Origin: Cognatundibacterium crateris
Lineage (GTDB): Bacteria > Pseudomonadota > Gammaproteobacteria > Burkholderiales > Burkholderiaceae_D
DNA: 64,000 nt
Reading direction: 5' to 3'
Assembly (NCBI RefSeq): GCF_010078235.1
Contig: NZ_JAABOS010000002.1
Span: 486,388 to 550,387, forward strand
Part shown: one piece after another, positions 2,765-64,000 of the stretch
Numbering within the stretch: position 1 is the first letter of the stretch
Layout: each line of letters starts with the position of its first letter
Notes under the pieces: generated by a model
What the model was told of the DNA's origin: nothing
Seen by the model: the letters and a program-made list of their open reading frames with translations, nothing else
The model's database searches: none
Program-made: the position numbers and the translations under genes

Positions 2765-3168
2765 AACGAATATCCGAGAGAATAACTGGCAAACAGCAAA
2801 CTTACTTAGCGGACTTCCACGACGAAGTTAAAGCCGTGGCACGCAATTACGCATTGAGCCGGTATGTTGGTGAGAAGTACAGAATCATCTCAGATAAAGA
2901 GATTACCGGCCAGTATTGCGGAGTCCTAGGCGTTCGCATGGCAATTGTCTGGGGTGTAACACGCGGAACTGCGAATCGTAGGCTGCAGGCACTTGCAGCA
3001 TATGGCGTGTTTCGCGAACCGCGCTACGGACATACTCACTGCGATAGCTACAAGGTATCGGAAGAATTGGGCGTCCAGTACGTCAACGAGGCTATTCAAC
3101 ACTGGATTTCCGTAGGCTACAGCCAGACAGAATTCCGAGAAAAAATCCATTTAGAAAGTAAAAAATGA
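2761..3168 (+). CDS. Hypothetical protein with a winged-helix-like segment
   Basis: 135 residues, overlapping the methyltransferase stop by four bases. Residues about 65-95 (WGVTRGTANRRLQALAAYG followed by VFREPRYG) look like a recognition helix and wing of a winged helix-turn-helix, so DNA binding is plausible. The position after a methyltransferase in an early operon would suit a regulator or replication-linked protein. No family is recognised. Confidence 0.75.
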   Translation: MKRISERITGKQQTYLADFHDEVKAVARNYALSRYVGEKYRIISDKEITGQYCGVLGVRMAIVWGVTRGTANRRLQALAAYGVFREPRYGHTHCDSYKVSEELGVQYVNEAIQHWISVGYSQTEFREKIHLESKK

Positions 3169-3674
3169 GCAACCTTCAACAGCACATTGGCAATAAAACA
3201 GTAGGCACTGGAACCACGCCTGGCGCCTACCAATTTGATCGGTTAATCAAAGCATTACCGGTGACAAATCTAAATACAGCAAGAAAATCAGATGAATTGA
3301 TTTCGGAGTTGCTTGCGAACGTCAACGAATATGCTCCAGAGACAGTAACAGCACTACTTGCATACGAAGCAGCCCAATATATTAAATCACTGGAAGAGGA
3401 AATTGCCAAATTAAACCGGAAATCAATCCACGGTTTAGAAATTACTGCCGCTCAGCTGCAAGAAGTGCTGGACTTTGTATTTGCCGATGCCGATGCACGA
3501 GATGACCACGAAAGCAGCGCTCGAATAGCCTTCCTACCAGCCGAGTATGCCCCGATTGGCGATAACAACATACGGATGAAGCCGGGGCTTTACGCATGTG
3601 ACGCAGAATATCCTGAGGAGGGCTGGATCCCACTTTTTGACGATGCTGATAACGATGACGGCGGTGCAGCATGA
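3165..3674 (+). CDS. Hypothetical early protein
   Basis: 169 residues, no recognised domain. A short helical stretch around 75-90 (KSLEEEIAKLNRK) may be a coiled coil. The C-terminal third is acidic and ends DNDDGGAA. It starts with an ATGA overlap on the previous gene and ends in the GGTGCAGCATGAG junction that recurs through this operon. Confidence 0.7.
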   Translation: MSNLQQHIGNKTVGTGTTPGAYQFDRLIKALPVTNLNTARKSDELISELLANVNEYAPETVTALLAYEAAQYIKSLEEEIAKLNRKSIHGLEITAAQLQEVLDFVFADADARDDHESSARIAFLPAEYAPIGDNNIRMKPGLYACDAEYPEEGWIPLFDDADNDDGGAA

Positions 3675-4321
3675 GCCAATTACCACAACGCGACGAAACC
3701 AAGCCAGCTGAACAGCAAGGACTGTTTCAAAAATTCATTGTTGCACGCACAGACGGCAAAGACGCGCCAGGGCAAAAGCATTGCGGGTGCGAATATTTTG
3801 TTCTGGACGTGAAACATGACCAACACGCAAAAGCGGCACTGGCAGCATATGCAATTGCGTGCGCGGAAAGCCATCCAGATTTAAGAAACGATTTGGTGCG
3901 ACGTTATGCCCTGCCGCCGCCTGAAGTGGCACATAAACCATCCGGCTATTTTAAAGCAGATTTAAATGGCAATTTATTATGGGGGCAGGATTGCGTAAAC
4001 GAAGAGGATGTTTTTTTCAATGGCATTGACGAAATATCCAGACCTTTCTTTATGGCACCGCAAGAATTAGTTAGCCTGGAAGTGGAAAACAGAAAATTGA
4101 AGCTTCGTTTAAATCGAAACGTTTCTTTACTTGCTAATGAAACTTTGCAGTCTGAAAAAGAAAGCCTTTTGCTGCAAATAGCCGAACTGCGCGAAGTGCT
4201 GGAGCTGGCAAAGAACGGACTGCAATGGTACCAGGATCAATTCCCGGAGGTTGCCAGCGAGACGGACTATGAAACTATGGAGCGCATCAATGCAGCGCTG
4301 GAAGGTGTTGAAAATGACTAA
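3671..4321 (+). CDS. Hypothetical early protein with coiled coil
   Basis: 216 residues. The N-terminal part contains an F-I-V-A-R-T-D-G-K-D-A-P-G-like stretch and the pattern CGCEYFVLDVKHD around residues 35-47, seen in many small phage accessory proteins. Residues about 130-190 form a leucine-rich coiled coil. The end resembles phage proteins with a closing NAALEG motif. It overlaps both neighbours (3671 and 4314), consistent with a coupled operon. Function unknown. Confidence 0.7.
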   Translation: MSQLPQRDETKPAEQQGLFQKFIVARTDGKDAPGQKHCGCEYFVLDVKHDQHAKAALAAYAIACAESHPDLRNDLVRRYALPPPEVAHKPSGYFKADLNGNLLWGQDCVNEEDVFFNGIDEISRPFFMAPQELVSLEVENRKLKLRLNRNVSLLANETLQSEKESLLLQIAELREVLELAKNGLQWYQDQFPEVASETDYETMERINAALEGVEND

Positions 4322-6923: not shown

Positions 6924-7375
6924 ACCAACTAGAACAACCAAGAGAGCAATGTGCAAAGGTTTGCGATGAGCAAATATCCGATGATCTCCGAAACCGCGCT
7001 GATGTATGCGCCAACGCAATCCGCGCCATTCCCCTACCTGATGTTCGGCTCTCTATTGGCAACACGTTTAATGAGCGCGTTTTGAACGTTCTCGGCGAAA
7101 CCTGGAATCTGGTCAGCTTTCCGCTTGAGCAGCCATTTAAGGCGCAAGCGCGCAGTGAAATTATGCGTTTAATGACGGAAATTGTATTAATGCGCAATGA
7201 GCCTACAGTTGAAGAGCTACGCGCTGAGAATGAGCAGTTGCGAAACGCACTGGAGCAATACCACGCTTTCGCCTCTATGAGACGCGATGAACTTGGCTGC
7301 TTATCGGACGAACTGGAAAGCATCGACGCTTATGCCAAATCTGTGCTCGACAGCAGTAAAGGCGGTGTAGCATGA
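6920..7375 (+). CDS. Hypothetical protein, EQCA/IRALPLP paralogue family (copy 2)
   Basis: 151 residues. It shares REQCAKVCDEQ at the N-terminus, NAIRAIPLPD near residue 38, the coiled-coil segment LRAENEQLRN and the ending SKGGVA with the proteins at 5018-5500 and 60683-61135. The middle parts differ, so the copies have diverged or been shuffled around shared ends. It is the last sizeable gene of the early operon. Confidence 0.7.
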   Translation: MNQLEQPREQCAKVCDEQISDDLRNRADVCANAIRAIPLPDVRLSIGNTFNERVLNVLGETWNLVSFPLEQPFKAQARSEIMRLMTEIVLMRNEPTVEELRAENEQLRNALEQYHAFASMRRDELGCLSDELESIDAYAKSVLDSSKGGVA

Positions 7376-20000: not shown

Positions 20001-20930
20001 CTAAGTAGTTTGTCGGAATAGCATTTTTAATGCTTCATTACCAGCAGAAGTCCCAATTAAAGATAGCGCGCCTACTTGGGAATCAAGAATCTTAACCCCA
20101 GACTGGATCGCCATAAACTCAATATAAGGGGCATCGACATTGTGCCCATCCTGATGCATTTCTTCCAATAATTTAGCGATTGATGAAGAAAACCTTGCAT
20201 TTGCAAATGTGCGTAAATCGAGCTTTGGAAGCTTCAATGACCCATCCTCACGAGTTCCGCAAAAATGAGGCTGCATAAGCATTTCTTTTGGATAAGAGTA
20301 TTTTTTTTGCTCAACCGGTGAAATTGCCGGCGACTCAAGCAACTCCCATTCAGCAGCGTATCGCGTTATCAGAGATAAAGCTTCGGAGTACTCTGCCTTT
20401 GGAATTTCGCGATAGTTGACGCCAAAATGCGACTTTAGCCTTGACCATCCCTTGACCATAAAAGTGGCCTGCTTATCTTTAGGGAGGTGGTCGCATGTTG
20501 CTTTCAACGTCATGCGAATTTCTTCAGCCTGGTCAGCAGACAAAACGTCATGTGAATTTACAGAATATGGGGCGCGACTTTGGCCTGAAATTCTCGCCAA
20601 CTCCTCTTCCATCTTGTTAAACGCGTCAATGTAAGCCTCCTTCCACTTAGCAGCGTCTTTACCAGTGAAACCCATAGCAAGGAACATGAAGCCATCTCTT
20701 GCAATTACGTAACAAGGCAATTTTCTTCCTGTTGAATCATAAAATTCACTCAGCGCAAAATTGCGTTCAGTGAATTCCGATGAACATTCCAATTTTGAAA
20801 TTGCACGCAACACATCCGCATGGCGCTTGCCGAACTTTTCAGCAATTAAATTGCTGCTAGTAACCGCACGGTCGTTTGTAATAGAAACAATGGAAGTTGC
20901 AAGAGCTGCGGATGATGTGGAATTAGACAT
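20001..20930 (-). CDS. Rha family phage regulatory protein
   Basis: 309 residues. The N-terminal Rha domain is clear: VTSSNLIAEKFGKRHADVLR, RNFALSEFYDSTGRKLPCY and FLAMGFTGKDAAKWKEAYI. The C-terminal part (KGWSRLKSHFGVNYREIP, then a helical tail) resembles P22-type antirepressor C-termini. Such proteins modulate the lytic/lysogenic decision in strains lacking IHF or act as antirepressors. The start at 20930 has AAGGTG upstream, and the in-frame start at 20972 has no binding site. It is transcribed alone from the promoter near 21231-21260. Confidence 0.85.
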   Translation of the reverse strand: MSNSTSSAALATSIVSITNDRAVTSSNLIAEKFGKRHADVLRAISKLECSSEFTERNFALSEFYDSTGRKLPCYVIARDGFMFLAMGFTGKDAAKWKEAYIDAFNKMEEELARISGQSRAPYSVNSHDVLSADQAEEIRMTLKATCDHLPKDKQATFMVKGWSRLKSHFGVNYREIPKAEYSEALSLITRYAAEWELLESPAISPVEQKKYSYPKEMLMQPHFCGTREDGSLKLPKLDLRTFANARFSSSIAKLLEEMHQDGHNVDAPYIEFMAIQSGVKILDSQVGALSLIGTSAGNEALKMLFRQTT

Positions 20931-21230
20931 AGTGGCACCTTTTTGATTGATTTCAGAGATCAACCACTCCAAACTCCAATTTGGGGTGGGAGACTGTACG
21001 AGGTTGGAGTTCTAGCCAAAAGGAAAACTAGCGAGCCTTACGACTCCCTCGCACAGCCCCCCATAGGTAACAGCTGCGCCACGCGAAAAAAAAGCCGACA
21101 TGATGTAGGCTTCGCGCCCATTTTGGTTTCAGGACTCCACTCCCGATCGCCTCTTTATCAGCGATGCAGAAATCTTATTCCTTAGAAGTGCAAATGTCAA
21201 ACCAATCAAAAATTAGGCTTTTTCGGCGCA

Positions 21231-27771: not shown

Positions 27772-27800
27772 TTGCCGCAAAAGCCATTTATGGCTACTAT
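27772..27800 (+). promoter_or_regulatory. Operator-type promoter for the + strand cargo pair
   Basis: TTGCCG, a 17-base spacer and TACTAT. The spacer carries AGCCATTTATGGC, a near-palindrome shared with other promoters in the window. The gene at 27845 begins 45 bases further on with AAGGAG as its ribosome binding site. Confidence 0.7.
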
Positions 27801-27844
27801 TATTCTCAATTGAATTTACCTATTTATTTTTAAGGAGCCCGAAT

Positions 27845-28093
27845 ATGCAAAAACAAGCACCAAAACCAAGGTGGATGAGTGACAACGCGTTAACGTTCAT
27901 GCGTGTAAATGAATATTTCTGCAGCAAACGGCGCGCTACCGTCGTTACGCAATGCGATCTGGTGCATGCAGACGGCACGTTGCTTTATCAAGGCGTAAAG
28001 GCTAGCGAGGAAAAAGCTTTAGGCGTTCAAAAAGAAGTCGGTGCGATGGCCTGGGCAATTCAATGCAATACTGACGTTATCAATCCTCACTGA
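27845..28093 (+). CDS. Small hypothetical cargo protein
   Basis: 82 residues. The start is set by AAGGAGCCCGAATATG. No domain recognised. It is on the opposite strand to the flanking virion genes, with its own promoter, which suggests expression outside the late programme. Confidence 0.65.
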   Translation: MQKQAPKPRWMSDNALTFMRVNEYFCSKRRATVVTQCDLVHADGTLLYQGVKASEEKALGVQKEVGAMAWAIQCNTDVINPH

Positions 28094-52192: not shown

Positions 52193-53626
52193 TTACATAC
52201 CCCATCCATTGAGATTGTAATTTGCCCGAGTGACGTTGATAGTTAGGCTATCCGCCGTCATAAAGCGAAATTGTTCCGGCAGTTGAGCTCCGGCAATCGG
52301 AGCTATATTTACGGTGAAATCAGCACCGTTATCCTGCAGTGCTGGAACCTTTTCCCTTAGCAGCTCATAGACTCGCTTGTACATTGGCATGCTCATTCCT
52401 ATCCTTACAGCCGGCGATGAGGCGCCATACTCTGCAAGCAACACATCCCTGATGCTCTGACGAACCGACTCTGTATCATTGACCCTTGCGACCGATGCAT
52501 TCACGGTTGCAACAACGTTAGAAATAACTGGGGCAACGAATGCCACTTTGAATGAGTCATCGGCATCGATAACAACATTGCGAATCATCTCCTGTATAGC
52601 CGCCCGGGACGAGCCAATCGGCTCTAAAAATGAGATGAACAACGTATTAATGTTGCTTACGTTTGCACCGCGAACCGACTCTTCAACAGACTCATTCCAG
52701 ACAGATAAGAATCTAAGATTTGGAACGTTTCTGCGGATTAAAAAATCAAACTCACCCAGGAATACGGCGCTTGAGTCGTATGCGGCCGGGTATTTACACA
52801 GCTCACGAAGTGTTGGCACGTCCATAGGGTTTGCGCCTGCAACTAAAAGCGCATCCATGGATATCTTTATTTGAGCGTCCTGCGGAGTGTAGGAATACTG
52901 CAGTGAAAATGGACTCCCAGATGGAACTTGGATTTCACCTGACGTTTCACGGACAAGTACCGAATAAACGTCACCGGCCTTTGGCTGATGACCAATCACT
53001 TGATCGTATCCGAGCACAATAAATATCTTCCGGTACTCATCGCATTCAATATTGAATACAGCATCACCACTGGCTACGTTTGTGAACTCTCGAGAGTATC
53101 TGTATTCAGTTCCTCCAGAGTCCTTTAACCTGATCCCGCAGATCGTTTTTCCATCAGTCGAGGCGGGGACTTCGACCTTGTAGAACGGCATAGAAACAGA
53201 AACGGTATGGTCAAAGGTTCGCGTCTGAGCCTGAACGAGCTCTGCGAAACCGTCTGAGCCTGGCGGAACCGTCACTGGCAAATCAACTTCATACAGATTT
53301 CCGCTGGAGTCAATCAATGCCCGTCCACTATTCAGCTGATATGGAGAGCTTGAGCTATTTGAGACCTTCACACGAACACGCGATGGCAGCGACATAGGAA
53401 CCAATCCCTTTAGCGCAGCGTCGGCCAAAACAGTGGCATCGCGAGTTTTACTGAATGGCTCCATCATCCCAATTTCCATTTGCTGGGATAACATCGCCAA
53501 CATTTGAGCCATTGCTGACTGCGCTTGCAAAATTCGCGGATCACCCGCCTGATACAGCGCAGCCACAGAAGGGTACTGCGCTACGGTCGACTCAATAACG
53601 TTCAGAAAATCCTGCTTCGTATGCAT
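52193..53626 (-). CDS. Baseplate J-like wedge protein
   Basis: 477 residues. The N-terminal helical part with LADAALKGLVPMSLPSR is followed by a strand-rich middle and a C-terminal part resembling the gp6/J family (DTESVRQSIRDVLLAEYG, KRVYELLREKVPALQD). Baseplate J forms the wedge ring that triggers sheath contraction. It directly follows the gp25-like gene, as in many myophages. Confidence 0.75.
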   Translation of the reverse strand: MHTKQDFLNVIESTVAQYPSVAALYQAGDPRILQAQSAMAQMLAMLSQQMEIGMMEPFSKTRDATVLADAALKGLVPMSLPSRVRVKVSNSSSSPYQLNSGRALIDSSGNLYEVDLPVTVPPGSDGFAELVQAQTRTFDHTVSVSMPFYKVEVPASTDGKTICGIRLKDSGGTEYRYSREFTNVASGDAVFNIECDEYRKIFIVLGYDQVIGHQPKAGDVYSVLVRETSGEIQVPSGSPFSLQYSYTPQDAQIKISMDALLVAGANPMDVPTLRELCKYPAAYDSSAVFLGEFDFLIRRNVPNLRFLSVWNESVEESVRGANVSNINTLFISFLEPIGSSRAAIQEMIRNVVIDADDSFKVAFVAPVISNVVATVNASVARVNDTESVRQSIRDVLLAEYGASSPAVRIGMSMPMYKRVYELLREKVPALQDNGADFTVNIAPIAGAQLPEQFRFMTADSLTINVTRANYNLNGWGM

Positions 53627-53950
53627 CTATCTACCTCCCACTGTAACGCTCACCCCATCCGATGAAATCATGGATCCAGCAATATCCACTATGAGCAATC
53701 GCTTGTCGGGCTCAATATCTTGGTAATAAATATTAATTGCGCCATTCGGAAGAGCACTCAGAACCGGGATGTCTTGCCGCATTTTTGCAATAAGTGACTG
53801 AGACATACCCGCAGATTCTGGGTACTGCAAAAAAGACTTAACGTCATTCCCGTAATCGGAGCCAAGATACGAGCCAACCGGCGTGGCGAGCCAATGGCGA
53901 ACCATGCCCTGTATGTCTACTGCTGTAATGATCGGCTTTGATGAATTCAT
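53627..53950 (-). CDS. Baseplate wedge protein gp25/W-like
   Basis: 107 residues. The pattern VRHWLATPVGSYLGSDYGND is typical of the gp25/W lysozyme-like baseplate family, here reduced to the common short form. It precedes the J-like gene by no bases. First gene of the baseplate operon after a 477-base gap with a terminator. Confidence 0.65.
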   Translation of the reverse strand: MNSSKPIITAVDIQGMVRHWLATPVGSYLGSDYGNDVKSFLQYPESAGMSQSLIAKMRQDIPVLSALPNGAINIYYQDIEPDKRLLIVDIAGSMISSDGVSVTVGGR

Positions 53951-54007
53951 TCCTCAATTATCATGTGTGCTTTCATACCAAAATTTCCGCGTTTTCCCTG
54001 AAAACAA

Positions 54008-54033
54008 AAAAGCCTGCAACAATGCAGGCTTTT
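54008..54033 (-). terminator. Intrinsic terminator
   Basis: AAAAGCCTGCA and TGCAGGCTTTT form an 11-bp stem with a four-base loop, followed on the - strand by a T-rich run. It would end transcripts coming from 54.4-56 kb before the baseplate operon. Confidence 0.8.
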
Positions 54034-54351
54034 CATTCAGGCTAGGCCATCCAATTCTATTCAGTTCCTAGGTTTTATCCATTCCCTAGGCGATCTCTGG
54101 TTTATGTAACTAGCCGTACTCCAGCTGAATCGGTCTCGCAATATGCTCCGTTTCAGCAATACAGAGTTCCGGCCTGTTCCAATAATGCATATAGCTAAAC
54201 AAGAGACCTTCAATTATTGCCGGGGAGAAGGCAACAATCAAAAAAAACCTCATCACTAATCTAAGCATTCATATCCTAAAAAAAATTTGCACGAATTAGG
54301 CTAGCCCCGAGTTACTAAGACCTTCGCACTGCTCCTCTTGACCCCAGATTT

Positions 54352-54412
54352 ACCATGCAAGCTCATGGTGGAATATCACCTGCTTTCGCAGCCCTCGATC
54401 CGAGTACGAGGG
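54352..54412 (-). other. Three adjacent hairpins
   Basis: On the - strand: CCCTCG/CGAGGG with a nine-base loop, CTGC-GAAA-GCAG (a GNRA tetraloop) and ACCATG/CATGGT with a six-base loop, all within 61 bases and just after the stop of the gene at 54428. It could be part of a structured 3' RNA. It does not fit a tRNA. Confidence 0.5.
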
Positions 54413-54427
54413 GATTACCAACAAATT

Positions 54428-54922
54428 TTATTGCTGACCCTGCTTTGAAGCAGAGTTCAATTTATCCAAGTCAGCCTTAGCATCTGCAGCTTGTTTATCA
54501 GCGGCGGCTTTCGCCTCCTCAGCCTGCTTCAGCTTGAGCGCAGCCATTTCTTGGCGCTGCTTTTCAACGGCGGCAGCATCTGCCTTTACGCTCAATTCCA
54601 TTGCAAGTGCTTTTTCATCGCGCTCTTTTGCCGACGACAAATAAAGGGAGGCGCATGCCTGATGAAACTCAGCATGTGTCATTGTTTTTCCTGTTTCCTC
54701 ACCCGTTTCCTGGTTAATTAACGGGAATTTCTTTTGCGGGTCAACGAATTGGACGATGATACTGTCCACTTGGTTGCCTATCGATTTATCACCCAAAACT
54801 ACGCGATCTTCCTCGAGGAAGTGAACAGTTGGAGTTTGACCAAAGCTGTTTTCCGCTACGAATCGCATGCAGCGACGATATGAAACGCCACTGAGGTTTG
54901 TTTGTCGATAATTTTGAGGCAT
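54428..54922 (-). CDS. Virion-associated protein with coiled-coil tail
   Basis: 164 residues. The N-terminal half (QTNLSGVSYRRCMRFVAENS, HFLEEDRVVLGD, PLINQETGEETG) matches a small phage protein family found near tail genes, with no clear function. The C-terminal half is an Ala/Lys/Gln-rich coiled coil. It is followed by the structured gap and terminator, separate from the baseplate operon. Confidence 0.65.
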   Translation of the reverse strand: MPQNYRQTNLSGVSYRRCMRFVAENSFGQTPTVHFLEEDRVVLGDKSIGNQVDSIIVQFVDPQKKFPLINQETGEETGKTMTHAEFHQACASLYLSSAKERDEKALAMELSVKADAAAVEKQRQEMAALKLKQAEEAKAAADKQAADAKADLDKLNSASKQGQQ

Positions 54923-54957
54923 ATAACACCTTATCTGATTGGGTTAAGTTTATAAAA

Positions 54958-55083
54958 TCAGGCTTCTACTTCTATGTGGCGGCCGGCACTGCCTTCTTCC
55001 GGCATGCCGTGCAGTAAGGTCAGTGCGCCAGCTTTTGCGCCATCCCCGGCAACGACTTGTTTTCTGCTTATTACGTAGCGCAT
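54958..55083 (-). CDS. Possible small protein downstream of the structured region
   Basis: 41 residues from an ATG at 55083. An upstream in-frame GTG at 55158 would overlap the structured element. The sequence ends GSAGRHIEVEA. Codon use is unremarkable and the ribosome binding site is weak, so this may be chance. Confidence 0.3.
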   Translation of the reverse strand: MRYVISRKQVVAGDGAKAGALTLLHGMPEEGSAGRHIEVEA

Positions 55084-55100
55084 CAGCCTGCGCAATTCCC

Positions 55101-55219
55101 CCACACAGAAGCGGCCTCTGGTCGTGACGATCCCAGAACCACTAGAGCCAGTGGACACCGTGCACAGTGCTACCCACCTCCCTTGCGCAGTACGCCTATT
55201 CGCCGCCGCTTCTGTGTGG
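55101..55219. repeat. 15-bp inverted repeat closing RNA domain 3
   Basis: CCACACAGAAGCGGC and its exact reverse complement enclose about 89 bases. Nearly the same arm sequence is reused at 55378-55561. Confidence 0.9.
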
Positions 55220-55377
55220 TTCCTGACTCTTACCCGGCCAGGTTAGGTGTGGCGCGCAATACTCTTAATGACTATGAGTTACTAGCCTCCTGCCGGTCGC
55301 CAGACACCGGCTCTTATCCCTTCGCTTTCAGAGGCAATCCAGTCTTGCGACGCGCTAGGGGTCTACTACTTACAACA

Positions 55378-55561
55378 CCACACAGAAGCGGGTAGGGCGC
55401 TACTCCTACTATCCTCAAAGGCCGACAAAGCCTTTACCTGCATGCGGGTCGGGATCGATACCGATTGCCGCCAATTTTTACTTCGATCTACTGTGCTTTT
55501 TCAGGTGAGCGCAGCAACTTTGCTCTGCGTGTCTGCTTTCCACGCCTCCGCTTTTGTGTGG
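55378..55561. repeat. 14-bp inverted repeat closing RNA domain 2
   Basis: CCACACAGAAGCGG and CCGCTTTTGTGTGG pair with one non-Watson-Crick position. The left arm is also an exact complement of the arm at 55205-55219, so alternative pairing is possible. Confidence 0.85.
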
Positions 55562-55735
55562 CCTCTCCTTTAATACTTCGCTGGCGGAGAGCTACCAGCC
55601 GGATTTTTCGGACACCGGAGTCGGAACGGGGCAGTTGTGAGGCTCCCTGCTCAGGGCGAGTCATTTTGTTCATCCACTTTCTTTTCTGCTGCAATTCTGG
55701 CGCTACAACAGAGTCATGCTTTCGCCTTCACCAAC

Positions 55736-55930
55736 AAGTTAGGGGGTCTGGACTTGATACCAGCTTGTCGGATTACTGCGATACCGAGTCGCGTGTGGTT
55801 GTCGTCACATTTACCCACAACTTCATTTCCTCTCCCTAGTTCACAGCTCGCACCAAAACTGCTAAGTGATTTGCGAGTCGAATATTTCTGCATCTAGTTC
55901 TGCACTTCCTTCAGTGCTGCCCCCTAACTT
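55736..55930. repeat. 11-bp inverted repeat closing RNA domain 1
   Basis: AAGTTAGGGGG and CCCCCTAACTT pair perfectly around about 173 bases that include several local hairpins. Confidence 0.85.
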
Positions 55931-56043
55931 CTTGGCTCCGGCCTTTCTGCCGGATCGGCTACAGCAATTGTTTTTTCTGCTGATTCAAGTAGCTTTTCTC
56001 AGAGTTCCAACGCGCTCAACAAAGATGCGCAATCCATTTGAGA

Positions 56044-56073
56044 ATTATATTAGCCATTTATGATTATTTGCAA
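56044..56073 (-). promoter_or_regulatory. Operator-type promoter for the structured RNA
   Basis: On the - strand TTGCAA, an 18-base spacer and TATAAT. The spacer contains ATAAATGGCTAA, resembling the operator half-sites of the promoters at 63030, 21231 and 27772. The -35 overlaps the end of the upstream gene. The predicted start is near 56037, immediately before the structured region. Confidence 0.65.
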
Positions 56074-56471
56074 CTAAATTTTTCCGCTTTTAACTTATTA
56101 ATGACGAACCTGACAATTGCATGTCGAACGCACTCGTCTTTGGACGAAAAATTCATGTGCTTTAACGTAACTTGACCTAAGTTCTTTTCGGATTGAGAGC
56201 TCACAGACACGCTAATTGCGCCCACACCTACAGTCAAGAAATGTTCCGTTTGAAGCGAAATAGCATCATGGGTAAATCTAGTCCAAGATGGCATCATGCA
56301 ATGCGGCATAAATTCTGCAAAAGAACAGTTGGCAGGAGGCGCGCCGAAGAAGAAACCTCCCTTAAATTGAATGTCCGTCCATCCAATTAATTCCGCCAAC
56401 TCCATGTTTAGCGCATCAATCTCGTAAGATGCGCTTTCTATCGGAGCTACAACAACACTTTGCTCACACAT
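56064..56471 (-). CDS. Small phage accessory protein
   Basis: 135 residues. The pattern IDALNMELAELIGWTDIQFKG, then FFFGAPP and CMMPSWTRF follows a common class of lambdoid-type accessory proteins (NinX-like in outline) with no known function. Its ATG overlaps the stop of the 58-residue gene upstream by eight bases. Confidence 0.6.
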   Translation of the reverse strand: MCEQSVVVAPIESASYEIDALNMELAELIGWTDIQFKGGFFFGAPPANCSFAEFMPHCMMPSWTRFTHDAISLQTEHFLTVGVGAISVSVSSQSEKNLGQVTLKHMNFSSKDECVRHAIVRFVINKLKAEKFSCK

Positions 56472-56640
56472 AAGACCCTCTCTCAATCTTTCGATCCTCG
56501 ATTAATCTTCGGACACTAACGCGACGGCGATTCGCTTCCCTGGCCTCGCCGGCGCTCATAGCCGGATTAGTCATCAAGTCGCTCATCTTTGATGTTGACT
56601 TAACCTCTTCAAACGAGTGAGTTTTCTTGTATTTTTGCAT
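56464..56640 (-). CDS. Small basic protein
   Basis: 58 residues. The sequence is basic in its second half (EANRRRVSVRRLIEDRK). It is tied to the next gene by an eight-base overlap, which supports translation. DNA or RNA binding is possible. Not recognised. Confidence 0.55.
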   Translation of the reverse strand: MQKYKKTHSFEEVKSTSKMSDLMTNPAMSAGEAREANRRRVSVRRLIEDRKIERGSYV

Positions 56641-56668
56641 TTTTAAACCCGTATTTGCATATTTAAGA
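56641..56668 (-). promoter_or_regulatory. Degenerate operator-like site
   Basis: On the - strand TTAAATATGCAAATACGGG closely resembles the site at 57074-57100. The -10 position reads TTTAAA and it ends only a few bases before the ATG at 56640, so it may be an operator rather than a working promoter. Confidence 0.4.
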
Positions 56669-56687
56669 GCAAATAAATACCAGCACT

Positions 56688-57032
56688 CTAACGGCCATTA
56701 GCGATCATGTAGGGCTTCCATTTATCCTCGCCCTTTATTGAGTCACCGCGAACCATGATTAACATATCTTTGAATTTTCCGGTCTTTTCCGCGACGCTGA
56801 TATAGTCGGAGCAAGGGTGAGGACTTCCAAACGGCGCGCTAATTGGCTTTGCTTTACGCTTTCCGTTAAACAGTTCGCCCTGCTTAACCTCTACAGCAGC
56901 ATTGAAATCAGATTGGGACATTGTGAAGTCCTTGTCTTCTTTTCGCACCTTTGCAATTTGGCGCTTTATACACGCATCAGCAATCGGCCTCAGTGATGAA
57001 TACGAAACACCAAAAACAATGAACGCTGACAT
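56688..57032 (-). CDS. Hypothetical accessory protein
   Basis: 114 residues. Basic in the first half (RQIAKVRKEDKDF) with a QSDFNAAVEVKQGELFNGK stretch. Family unknown. It has AAAGGAGGGTTC upstream and its own operator-type promoter. Confidence 0.65.
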   Translation of the reverse strand: MSAFIVFGVSYSSLRPIADACIKRQIAKVRKEDKDFTMSQSDFNAAVEVKQGELFNGKRKAKPISAPFGSPHPCSDYISVAEKTGKFKDMLIMVRGDSIKGEDKWKPYMIANGR

Positions 57033-58977: not shown

Positions 58978-59291
58978 GTTGCATCACCTTTCAATGACAG
59001 ACGCTTTATTTGAATTTCTTTGAATCTTTCCAAATGCCACTCCTCAAGATCATCCCCTAGACAAGAAAAACCAGGGCTTTCATCTGGACACAATTGGCAA
59101 TCATCAATAACCATTTGACGCAATTCTGTGCAGTCGGCGCATACCTTGAACGAGTGAGTCTCCCCATCCCATATTCCAGAATGGAAGTGATACTTTTCGC
59201 CGCGCTGAATCACGCCGCGACATTCGCAGCATTTATGTTCTTTGCGCGCAGTTCGTATCACCTCACGATAAGCGGATGGAATTTCGCTCAT
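58974..59291 (-). CDS. Small zinc-ribbon protein
   Basis: 105 residues. Two CxxC pairs (HKCCECRG and VCADCTEL) around an RGEKYHFHSGIWDG segment suggest a treble-clef zinc site. Common in phage accessory clusters, function unknown. ATGA overlaps at both ends. Confidence 0.65.
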   Translation of the reverse strand: MSEIPSAYREVIRTARKEHKCCECRGVIQRGEKYHFHSGIWDGETHSFKVCADCTELRQMVIDDCQLCPDESPGFSCLGDDLEEWHLERFKEIQIKRLSLKGDAT

Positions 59292-59941
59292 GACTGCACG
59301 CACTTAAAAGAAATAACCCAAACCCATGGATTGGCATCCCAATCGCCACCGGTGAACCCCCAAAGATCTTGGAATGCCATGATTGGCGGGGTGTAAAAAA
59401 CATGCTGATATTTGGTTGACTTCCAGCCTCGCAGAGTAAGCTCAAGGCCTTCTGCGATAGCATCAGCCTCACTGATGTCGTTTAGGCGCTCGATGCGAAT
59501 ATCGGTAATTTCAAGGCGTATGCGACTTGCCCAGCGCGGCATATTGCTGGCTCCCTGCCACGGCGCAGGGATTGCATTGCCAGCTCCATCAGTCCATCCC
59601 CCGAGTGGAACGTCCCCATCGCGATAAATCACGTCATAGTTTTCTGGTTCATCCTCAGGACTGCCGCCGTCAGGATCAATTACAGAAAGAGCGAAGTCTT
59701 CTTGAACCCATAGCTGATCCCCAACTTCACCAAGTGGACATTTCACACAGATAAATCCAGCCTGCCACGCCTGATTAACATGCTGGCTGAGCGTTAAATC
59801 AGGGTTCCATGCGCCCAACTCGCGAAGGCGGCTTTCAGTTACCGTTGGCTGAACTTTTAAAATACGGCGTGTTTGCGTTTTGCGCCCGTCTAAGATTGCG
59901 CTCACCATCTCGCCAATAAACGCGATTGGATTCTCATTCAT
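59288..59941 (-). CDS. ASCH/PUA-like domain phage protein
   Basis: 217 residues. The pattern IAFIGEMVSAILDGRKTQTRR, GDQLWVQEDF, NMPRWASRIRLEITDIRIE and DISEADAIAEGL is that of the widespread phage family with an ASCH/PUA-like RNA-binding fold. Biological role unknown. Strong ribosome binding site AAAGGAGGTAATCC. Confidence 0.75.
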   Translation of the reverse strand: MNENPIAFIGEMVSAILDGRKTQTRRILKVQPTVTESRLRELGAWNPDLTLSQHVNQAWQAGFICVKCPLGEVGDQLWVQEDFALSVIDPDGGSPEDEPENYDVIYRDGDVPLGGWTDGAGNAIPAPWQGASNMPRWASRIRLEITDIRIERLNDISEADAIAEGLELTLRGWKSTKYQHVFYTPPIMAFQDLWGFTGGDWDANPWVWVISFKCVQS

Positions 59942-63088: not shown

Positions 63089-64000
63089 TTATGCGTCCGC
63101 AAACATCTCATCTGCAACAGCTTCTGCCTTTTCAATCGCACTACCCACAATGCCGCTGCTCGCACCACTCTCGGCGATCAGATAGTTAGCATTTTCAAGA
63201 AATGCAAATGAACATGCATCCCACAAGTCCGGAGACGGTATTCCGTCAGCAGCCATGTCCGCCTTTTTCTCAATATAGCGACGCGCCTTCTCGTCGTAGT
63301 GATAAGGGATTCTTGATCCTTGTTTGATGAGCTTTTTGATTATTGACTTTGGAATATCTGAATTAATCCCGAAGCGCCCCTCCTGGACAGCACGAGCGAT
63401 GCCACAGCATGCCTGCGCACGCTGGTTGACATACCGCTCCTTGTATTCAGTCTTGAAGTTTGGCGAGCCCCAAAGCACCTTAACGAAGTTCGTAAAATCA
63501 TTCTTCTCAAGTTGCTTGATAACGCTCAGTCCAATGCCGCCGCCGTCGATAATCGCCGTAGAGTTGGACAGATTTCCCGACTGTACAATGATGTCGCCGT
63601 AAACGTCGCTTGGGTCTTTGGAGTTTGAGCAAAGAGGCACGCTGACTATCTGTACTCTGCGCGCATCGGCGCCGTATTCGCCATGGCCTATTACTTTTGC
63701 AGCAATCAGAGCGGTATCATCGCGATATCCGCCACCACCGATATCACTTAGCAGAAACCATCCATATTCCTCATCATCTCTAATGACCTGCTTTCCTACG
63801 CAAGCCTCAATAGATGCAGCACCGGTCAGGTACTTCCCTGCTAACTCGCAGAACTGGCCGACCACCTTGATTAACCATTCCTCGAGCGAGTATTGCGCTT
63901 TTTTCTCAATCAAGAACTCATCAGACACAAGCGGGGAATCTATAGAGCTAAAGCTTAGGGCATTCCATACACCGCCCTCCTCTTTCGATAAGGAGTGATG
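63089..64000 (-). CDS. Terminase large subunit, C-terminal nuclease part (cut by window edge)
   Basis: 303 residues visible. The frame stays open through the right edge, so the GTG at 63928 is not the true start. The RNase H-like nuclease is seen in DIGGGGYRDDTALIA, AIIDGGGIGLSVIKQL and, near the end, SPDLWDACSFAF, which carry the acidic metal ligands. The ATPase half lies outside. It packages DNA into the prohead. It is followed by an operator-type promoter instead of the usual head genes. Confidence 0.8.
   Translation of the reverse strand, partial: HHSLSKEEGGVWNALSFSSIDSPLVSDEFLIEKKAQYSLEEWLIKVVGQFCELAGKYLTGAASIEACVGKQVIRDDEEYGWFLLSDIGGGGYRDDTALIAAKVIGHGEYGADARRVQIVSVPLCSNSKDPSDVYGDIIVQSGNLSNSTAIIDGGGIGLSVIKQLEKNDFTNFVKVLWGSPNFKTEYKERYVNQRAQACCGIARAVQEGRFGINSDIPKSIIKKLIKQGSRIPYHYDEKARRYIEKKADMAADGIPSPDLWDACSFAFLENANYLIAESGASSGIVGSAIEKAEAVADEMFADA

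Follow-up and report, generated by a model that had tools for sequence, protein, structure and literature searches.

A covarying phage RNA module beside a gene-free, repeat-rich stretch of a P1-like prophage

A divergent member of a widespread family of phage RNA modules lies on the minus strand of the DNA analysed here, 64,000 nucleotides of the Cognatundibacterium crateris genome (the window). The module (54969-55111) adjoins and overlaps the low-coordinate end of a stretch at 55101-56037 that is real and apparently non-coding. The closing stem of the module family, P1, covaries, and the place of the module in a covarying RNA family is shown. The reading that we prefer, with a probability of about 0.45, is that a non-coding RNA gene of the minus strand occupies a cargo site, with the conserved module as its 3' part, stems that would exchange partners and an interior that would pair with targets. 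The role that we propose for it is that of a phage RNA in which a stable scaffold surrounds a variable region for recognition. An earlier note on this DNA had suggested a giant phage RNA, possibly a member of the GOLLD or ROOL classes. What stands of this idea is a phage RNA module with homologues and compensatory changes, whereas the Rfam models of GOLLD and ROOL gave no match and no relatives were found for the other ~0.85 kb.

Table 1. Positions of the predicted features in the window
Feature	Position	Strand	Remarks
Promoter-like site TTGCAA-18-TATAAT	56044-56073	-	10/12 matches; transcript would start near 56037
Operator-like AATGGCTAATATAATTCTCAA 21-mer	56038-56058	-	also at 27789-27809 (+), 1 mismatch
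Proposed non-coding RNA, ~1.07 kb	54966-56037	-	putative extent
Domain d3	55731-55935	.	closing stem 15/16; formed on both strands; no homologue found
Domain d2	55378-55561	.	arms R1 55548-55561 and R1' 55378-55391; formed in the plus-strand fold only; no homologue found
Domain d1	55101-55219	-	arms R2 55205-55219 and R2' 55101-55115; upstream domain of the module in the minus sense
P1 5' arm	55101-55111	-	part of R2'
P2 hairpin, GCGC AGGCTGAT GCGC	55078-55093	-	model match
Hypervariable interior	55004-55077	-	position from sequence and model, variability from relatives
P3 hairpin, GCCGG..CCGGC	54982-55003	-	loop keeps CAGT (CAGU)
P1 3' arm (R3)	54969-54979	-	partner R2' (one G.U in the minus sense) or, in the 611-nt fold, R1'

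Setting, repeats and folding of the stretch

By its gene content, the window is a P1-like prophage. PHROGs matches comprise a tail sheath, a baseplate protein and a PmgG-like head protein, and the baseplate protein (52193-53626) has relatives in phage P1 and in Xanthomonas phage Rb1. All genes followed between 49.4 and 64 kb are on the minus strand. The stretch is single-copy in the genome, and an identical copy of it, together with the baseplate gene, is present in an 82.6-kb IMG/VR contig. Since in two relatives (L059 and L060) a gene like 63089-63928 is found directly upstream of a gene like 53627-53950, the region from 54 to 63 kb, which contains the gene-free stretch, is read as a putative variable cargo insert between conserved tail genes.

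Close to the stretch there is another gap that is poor in ORFs, 477 nt long (53951-54427, corresponding to L052 8200-8676). In another relative of the prophage, the cargo place is occupied by an ORF (L054 1165-2613, minus strand) whose translation looks like what we take to be a TIR/SEFIR-domain protein, and a gene of a related phage region in Ideonella dechloratans (L005 14955-15275) is annotated as avd of a diversity-generating retroelement. Elsewhere in the window, a C4 antisense RNA (20982-21068, minus strand, 67.6 bits) lies just upstream of an antirepressor-like gene (20001-20972, minus strand), an arrangement known from the immI region of phage P1.

The earlier note had seen no credible coding frame, and we agree: PHROGs, searched at E up to 1, contains no match to any of seven ORFs that overlap it. 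Nine neighbouring genes gave no Pfam match, and a 41-aa ORF (54958-55083), whose start codon is inside the P2 hairpin of the module, is without PHROGs match, as is its 66-aa form. With blastn, no homologue of the whole stretch was found in phages or plasmids, nor in 42 other genomes of the genus; a search of 59 relatives, a set overlapping these 42 genomes, returned one 30-nt match, in G052. Neighbouring genes were compared across loci that contain the baseplate gene, 41 from genomes and 80 viral. Apart from copies of the window itself, these loci contain no relatives of the genes between 54110 and 59303, and two of the gene just beyond (59288-59941). An nhmmer search of 291 loci at E up to 1 gave, in addition to copies of the window itself, 14 matches (best 3.5e-5), and these 14 all cover the module or the part composed of d1 and the module (query 855-1098); the stretch upstream of 55209 in the minus sense (~0.85 kb) has no relatives in the same 291 loci.

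Three inverted repeats that close three consecutive domains had been described previously, and both arm complementarity and shuffle tests confirm them. Their arms are complementary at 15 of 15 (55101-55115/55205-55219), 13 of 14 (55378-55391/55548-55561) and 15 of 16 positions (55731-55746/55920-55935, 11 uninterrupted). The arms R1, R1', R2 and R2' share one sequence within 1 mismatch, as four 14-mers of alternating orientation. The motif CCACACARAAGCGG is present in 4 copies in the 64-kb window, all inside the stretch (expected 0.00), and a fifth, imperfect copy of the repeated arm is found at 54966-54979, outside the stretch as first delimited.

Folding energies were scored against dinucleotide shuffles, 100 per domain, and reached z -4.7 on the plus and -4.3 on the minus strand for d1 (55101-55219), -4.2 and -2.1 for d2 (taken as 55378-55562), and -3.6 and -3.1 for d3 (55731-55935). 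The pieces between and beside the domains fold no better than shuffles (z from -1.6 to +1.5). For the whole stretch, z was -4.07 on the plus and -1.78 on the minus strand (20 shuffles per strand); relative to shuffles, the plus strand folds better than the minus. The previous three-domain description is valid for the plus strand, whose minimum-energy fold forms d1, d2 and d3, but not for the minus strand, that of the structured unit with homologues, where d1 and d3 are formed and d2 is absent, partly because a G.U of the second stem in plus becomes A.C in minus. The GC content of the stretch is 0.50-0.58 versus 0.41-0.53 in other windows of 50-60 kb, and the AT skew of the plus strand falls to -0.27, meaning an excess of A over T on the minus strand. 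The module, the promoter-like site and this A excess favour minus as the probable sense strand, and the better folding of the plus strand speaks against it.

Transcription from an operator-type promoter of its own was also part of the earlier proposal. A minus-strand promoter-like site from 56073 that shares the 21-mer was indeed detected, but such sites occur near chance frequency in the region (3 found versus 2.4 expected by shuffles), which makes the site weak by itself. The operator-like 21-mer was found twice for 0.01 expected, with a pattern written from these two sites. Both 21-mers overlie promoter-like sites, and the plus-strand copy lies upstream of a plus-strand ORF starting at 27846.

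It is unlikely, in our estimate, that only the module, with or without d1, is functional, the other ~0.8 kb being decayed or unrelated, or else a separate three-domain RNA of the plus strand. The lack of relatives upstream of 55209, the formation of d2 on plus only, the larger excess of plus-strand folds over shuffles and the shuffle-like folding of the inter-domain pieces would fit such a situation. On the other hand, the arms R1, R1', R2 and R2' preserve a common sequence with no more than 1 mismatch, as if maintained, and a scan of 54300-56700 detected no plus-strand promoter-like site upstream of 55101, whereas the minus-strand site is located at the far end of the stretch.

Plan and covariation of the module family

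A search of viral contigs for the closing-stem pattern led to one locus, L132. Apart from the stem, this locus and the window share a 17-mer (TGCGCAGGCTGATGCGC) and a 12-mer (GCCACACCTAAC); the P2 hairpin of the window is identical to that of L132 at 17 of 17 positions. When viral sequences were searched with the 17-mer, at least 120 stretches were retrieved. Among the matches listed, there are 125 exact occurrences of the 17-mer in 126 loci, and 77 of these occurrences have GCCGG..CCGGC within 260 nt. The module is organized as P1 - AAU - P2 (GCGC AGGCUGAU GCGC) - interior - P3 (GCCGG AGAUCAGCA CCGGC) - P1', where P1 is a variable closing stem and the P3 loop can kiss the P2 loop. Some P1/P3 was found for 136 of 140 P2 hairpins among the matches listed (median score 19.35), compared with 101 scored (median 12.2) when the downstream sequence of these 140 was shuffled. 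The window's own hairpin, present in five copies, scored 7.2, its mismatch and bulged linker being disallowed by the scoring. A stricter cut was passed by 113 of the matches listed, which contain 85 distinct interiors, 32-178 nt long. The P2 sequence does not vary in 81 of these 85 modules, again among the matches listed, but selection accounts for part of this near-invariance, most loci having been retrieved with the exact P2.

Since the first selection had required P1, covariation of this stem was assessed on 78 distinct sequences for which P2 and P3 were the sole selection criteria. Over seven positions, 503 of 546 cells are paired, versus a mean of 352 (sd 9.3, maximum 385) in 1000 permutations of the partners. 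These sequences carry 30 different arms, with 19 G.U against 6 A.C, and 10 of the 78 pair at fewer than 6 of the 7 positions. In alignment A2, composed of 42 sequences selected with P1, 97.1% of cells are paired versus 85.2% in shuffles, and 11 of 23 pairs are changed on both sides (96 cells versus 24.3). The four inner kissing pairs are formed in 42/42 sequences of A2 and vary only from G-C to G.U, and the outer two are lost in 3 and 8. The kissing pairs show that the P3 loop keeps its complement and do not show covariation, the P2 loop having been fixed by selection. Thus homologues with compensatory changes, by which the earlier note proposed to check its idea, were found for the module at 54969-55111, and covariation is shown for this module only, not for the three domains that the note described.

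The covariance model R1, trained without the window, matches it at 54974-55106 on the minus strand with 43.6 bits (E=2.6e-11), and a genome-wide search with this model gives the module as a single strong match (E 1.8e-9; next 0.03). The window thus holds a divergent member of the family: 14 of 16 matches in 16 other loci reach 53.9-79.6 bits, and the window module has a P1 mismatch near P2 as well as a longer P3 loop, which keeps only CAGU of the complement to P2 (4 pairs including one G.U). Forty baseplate loci, L004-L009 included, gave 5 matches to the same model, with a best E of 0.012. In whole genomes searched with this model under stricter filters the count was 13/369, some of them uncertain, since matches near 25-30 bits include P2 alone or shortened forms; a second count, made at E up to 1e-5 and also with stricter filters, gave 8/398. 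The centre of the module lies inside an ORF of at least 150 aa in 22 of 95 loci, versus 174 of 279 random places, so that some relatives may overlap coding sequence.

Competing partners of the closing stem and the proposed RNA

From their complementarity, two competing partners are shown for the 5' strand of P1 in the window: R2' could pair either with R2 (15 pairs, closing d1) or with R3 (11 pairs with one G.U, forming P1). Folding energies in the window are -108.6 kcal/mol with R2:R2' and, leaving the kissing loop aside, -104.5 with P1. The 611-nt fold gives pairing probabilities of 0.99 for R2:R2' and 0.93 for R1':R3, compared with 0.00 for P1, the disfavoured partner. The P1 stem of the window would therefore need the kissing loop, proteins, processing or kinetics, or be replaced by R1':R3.

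The reuse of nearly the same closing stem, pointed out in the earlier note, has parallels in relatives, where the 5' strand of P1 or the bases preceding it can also pair upstream. An upstream helix reaching P1 scores 26.4 versus 19.7 for shuffles, with 39 of 84 relatives above the threshold, and the downstream control scores 17.3 versus 17.1, with 13 of 84 above a threshold (means of three shuffles) that is, as this control count shows, lenient. In a 12-nt test, the upstream helix is found in 16 of 89 relatives versus 1.6 in permutations (maximum 5), and downstream in 1. At least 14 of 20 upstream pairs are present in 33/89, a count without its own control (G.U 45, A.C 6, other 84). A full overlap like that in the window is found in a minority (8-nt exact test, 5/89 versus 0.8 permuted). 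Judged by eye, this layout recurs in Klebsiella phage 6 and in HK633. A general rule, that another copy of the P1 arm lies nearby, failed (25/76 versus 22 with a shuffled arm).

The four near-identical 14-mers of alternating orientation could in principle act as DNA, as the ends of a small mobile element or as binding sites. This is most improbable: the excess of G.U over A.C in P1 (19 versus 6) and in the upstream helix (45 versus 6) is not favoured by DNA, and the genome holds one copy of the stretch. The mobile-element version was dropped on both grounds.

According to the preferred reading of a minus-strand RNA gene, the RNA would be made, probably late, from a promoter near 56044-56073, and the long upstream stem R2:R2' would form first. 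Once R3 is made, the strand could swap partners and form P1, a step in which proteins or the P2-P3 kissing loop would assist. The RNA might then be processed; processing of dicBF is treated in PMC10448788. The stable scaffold would finally present a phage-specific, fast-changing interior for pairing with target RNAs, as suggested for STnc100/PasD. Terminator-like sites are found within 300 nt downstream of the module in 20 of 89 cases, versus 3 on the other strand and 6.05 at random places.

More ambitious, and rather doubtful, is the idea of a new class: a large multi-domain phage RNA in which five alternately complementary arms (R1, R1', R2, R2', R3) exchange partners during transcription. 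Its end would be the conserved kissing-hairpin module with its hypervariable, phage-specific recognition region, and in unrelated Proteobacteria phages it would take up the niche of GOLLD and ROOL near tRNAs and in late leaders. We lowered its odds slightly because d2 is absent on the minus strand. Of the whole proposal, this chain of five arms is the newest element and has the least support.

Relatives, their contexts and known RNAs

Modules were found in lambdoid, P1-like, N4-like and Ackermannviridae phages. One relative of the module matches 194 of 50,697 phage records. Among 5426 complete E. coli genomes, 1579 contain a match to one form of the module (query L140, 181 nt with flanks), and in 579 the match extends over 80% or more of the query length. 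In the records that were opened, the module carries no RNA annotation and at most short hypothetical ORFs.

The neighbourhoods of sixteen annotated relatives are diverse. The module is located between Q or the late promoter and the holin in 3 of the 16 (HK633, Klebsiella phage 6, phiEt88), upstream of the holin in 2 more (PY54, phi_D3) and downstream of a cI-like gene in 3 (PAJU2 and two E. coli prophages of one type). In 7 of the 16 it lies within ~710 nt of a tRNA or tRNA-like match (ZC03, phiEt88, RCS47, ST4, nithesis, Klebsiella phage 6 and Jeremy), the matches in Klebsiella phage 6 and Jeremy being by Rfam and two of the seven being counted in other classes as well. The remaining contexts are a 964-nt gap (AP1) and hypothetical ORFs over the module (Magnus, Bas77).

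Could the competing helices form a cis-acting leader that controls transcription or translation of downstream genes, like put or an attenuator? The position between the late promoter or Q and the holin in HK633 and Klebsiella phage 6, that between the repressor gene and yfdP in two E. coli prophages, and the start codon of the 41-aa ORF (54958-55083) in P2 of the window are consistent with such a function. We nevertheless regard it as quite improbable, since no downstream gene is constant in the 16 contexts, neither the 41-aa ORF nor its 66-aa form is matched, and terminator-like sites follow 20/89 modules. The put element of HK022, about 70 nt with two stem-loops downstream of PL and PR according to PMC9378689, is likewise a two-hairpin RNA that phages carry in leaders, early or late. 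Compared by plan, it differs from the module, whose two hairpins with complementary loops are inside a closing stem around a variable interior.

A tRNA is present within 300 nt in 10 of 95 non-redundant loci, always on the same strand, versus 2.8 at random (sd 1.2), and within 1000 nt in 12 of 95 versus 5.9, the random maximum being 12. The tRNA link holds for a minority of module loci. In Escherichia phage RCS47 (L264), three modules (3004-3136, 3433-3532 and 3694-3816) stand in a row after two tRNA genes, the third being of STnc100 type, and ARAGORN places a tRNA-Ser (gct) within the interior of another module (L223, about 7100-7178).

According to PMC12286853, tRNA islands are frequent neighbours of GOLLD and ROOL, and tRNAs are sometimes contained in the linkers of GOLLD. 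The same paper describes phage location, often near tRNAs, and a conserved plus a variable part, features in which the module resembles them. This shared niche, the tRNA-Ser in the L223 interior and the several window arms with more than one possible pairing would suit a large assembling RNA of that type, in which repeated complementary arms pair between molecules and the interior acts as linker or cargo. It is improbable, however: the window has no match to the Rfam models of GOLLD or ROOL, so that the membership raised in the earlier note was not recovered, no sequence or plan in common was seen, and most relatives consist of one module of about 90-230 nt.

The Rfam models of group I and II introns have no match in the window either, and an Rfam search of 54850-56150 at E up to 10 returned two matches in all, both at chance level. 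Nothing was found by Rfam in L132; nine further loci contain tRNAs or weak other matches, none of which corresponds to the module. The module was not found described in the open-licence literature searched by sequence or topic, and has no match in Rfam release 15 where tested.

The closest known family is STnc100 (RF02076), which is also phage-borne and has a similar plan. Its model misses the window at E up to 10 and also, at E up to 0.01, the strong modules L258, L261, L265 and L267 (75.9-79.6 bits with model R1). STnc100 matches occur in tandem with the module in RCS47 and L243, where they represent a different, second module, and between dicF and dicB in the Qin prophage of E. coli K-12, which model R1 also matches with 23.8 bits, a score that would be unsafe alone. 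The STnc100 matches of the tandems and of K-12 reach 34.4-38.3, below the Rfam gathering score of 47. By eye, STnc100-type RNAs and the module have in common P1, GAAUGCGG and a G+C-rich P3 next to P1', and differ in their P2 and P3 loops. We read the module as a putative sister class of STnc100 and, since STnc100 seemingly has the same plan, do not place it as a wholly new kind. PasD, reported as an Hfq-bound sRNA that acts by base pairing, has been linked to STnc100, with Hfq RIL-seq partners and seeds reported in PMC13192938. Through the module family, STnc100, PasD and unnamed late leaders would become a single group of RNAs, united by their scaffold and by an interior that changes fast. 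The question of what sits between Q and the holin in such phages becomes testable in laboratory E. coli.

In E. coli K-12 MG1655, the Qin prophage carries this divergent relative with its sub-threshold STnc100 match at L291 15456-15581, directly downstream of dicF and in the same transcript; DicF itself (RF00039) is a different RNA of 53 nt. The K-12 prophage stretches CPS-53 and DLP12 gave no match to model R1 at E up to 1. Furthermore, HK633 and Klebsiella phage 6 (L261 2438-3460 and L267 2037-2900) share, by eye, another hairpin domain, GTGCTGCACGACACGT, which sits between the late promoter and the module.
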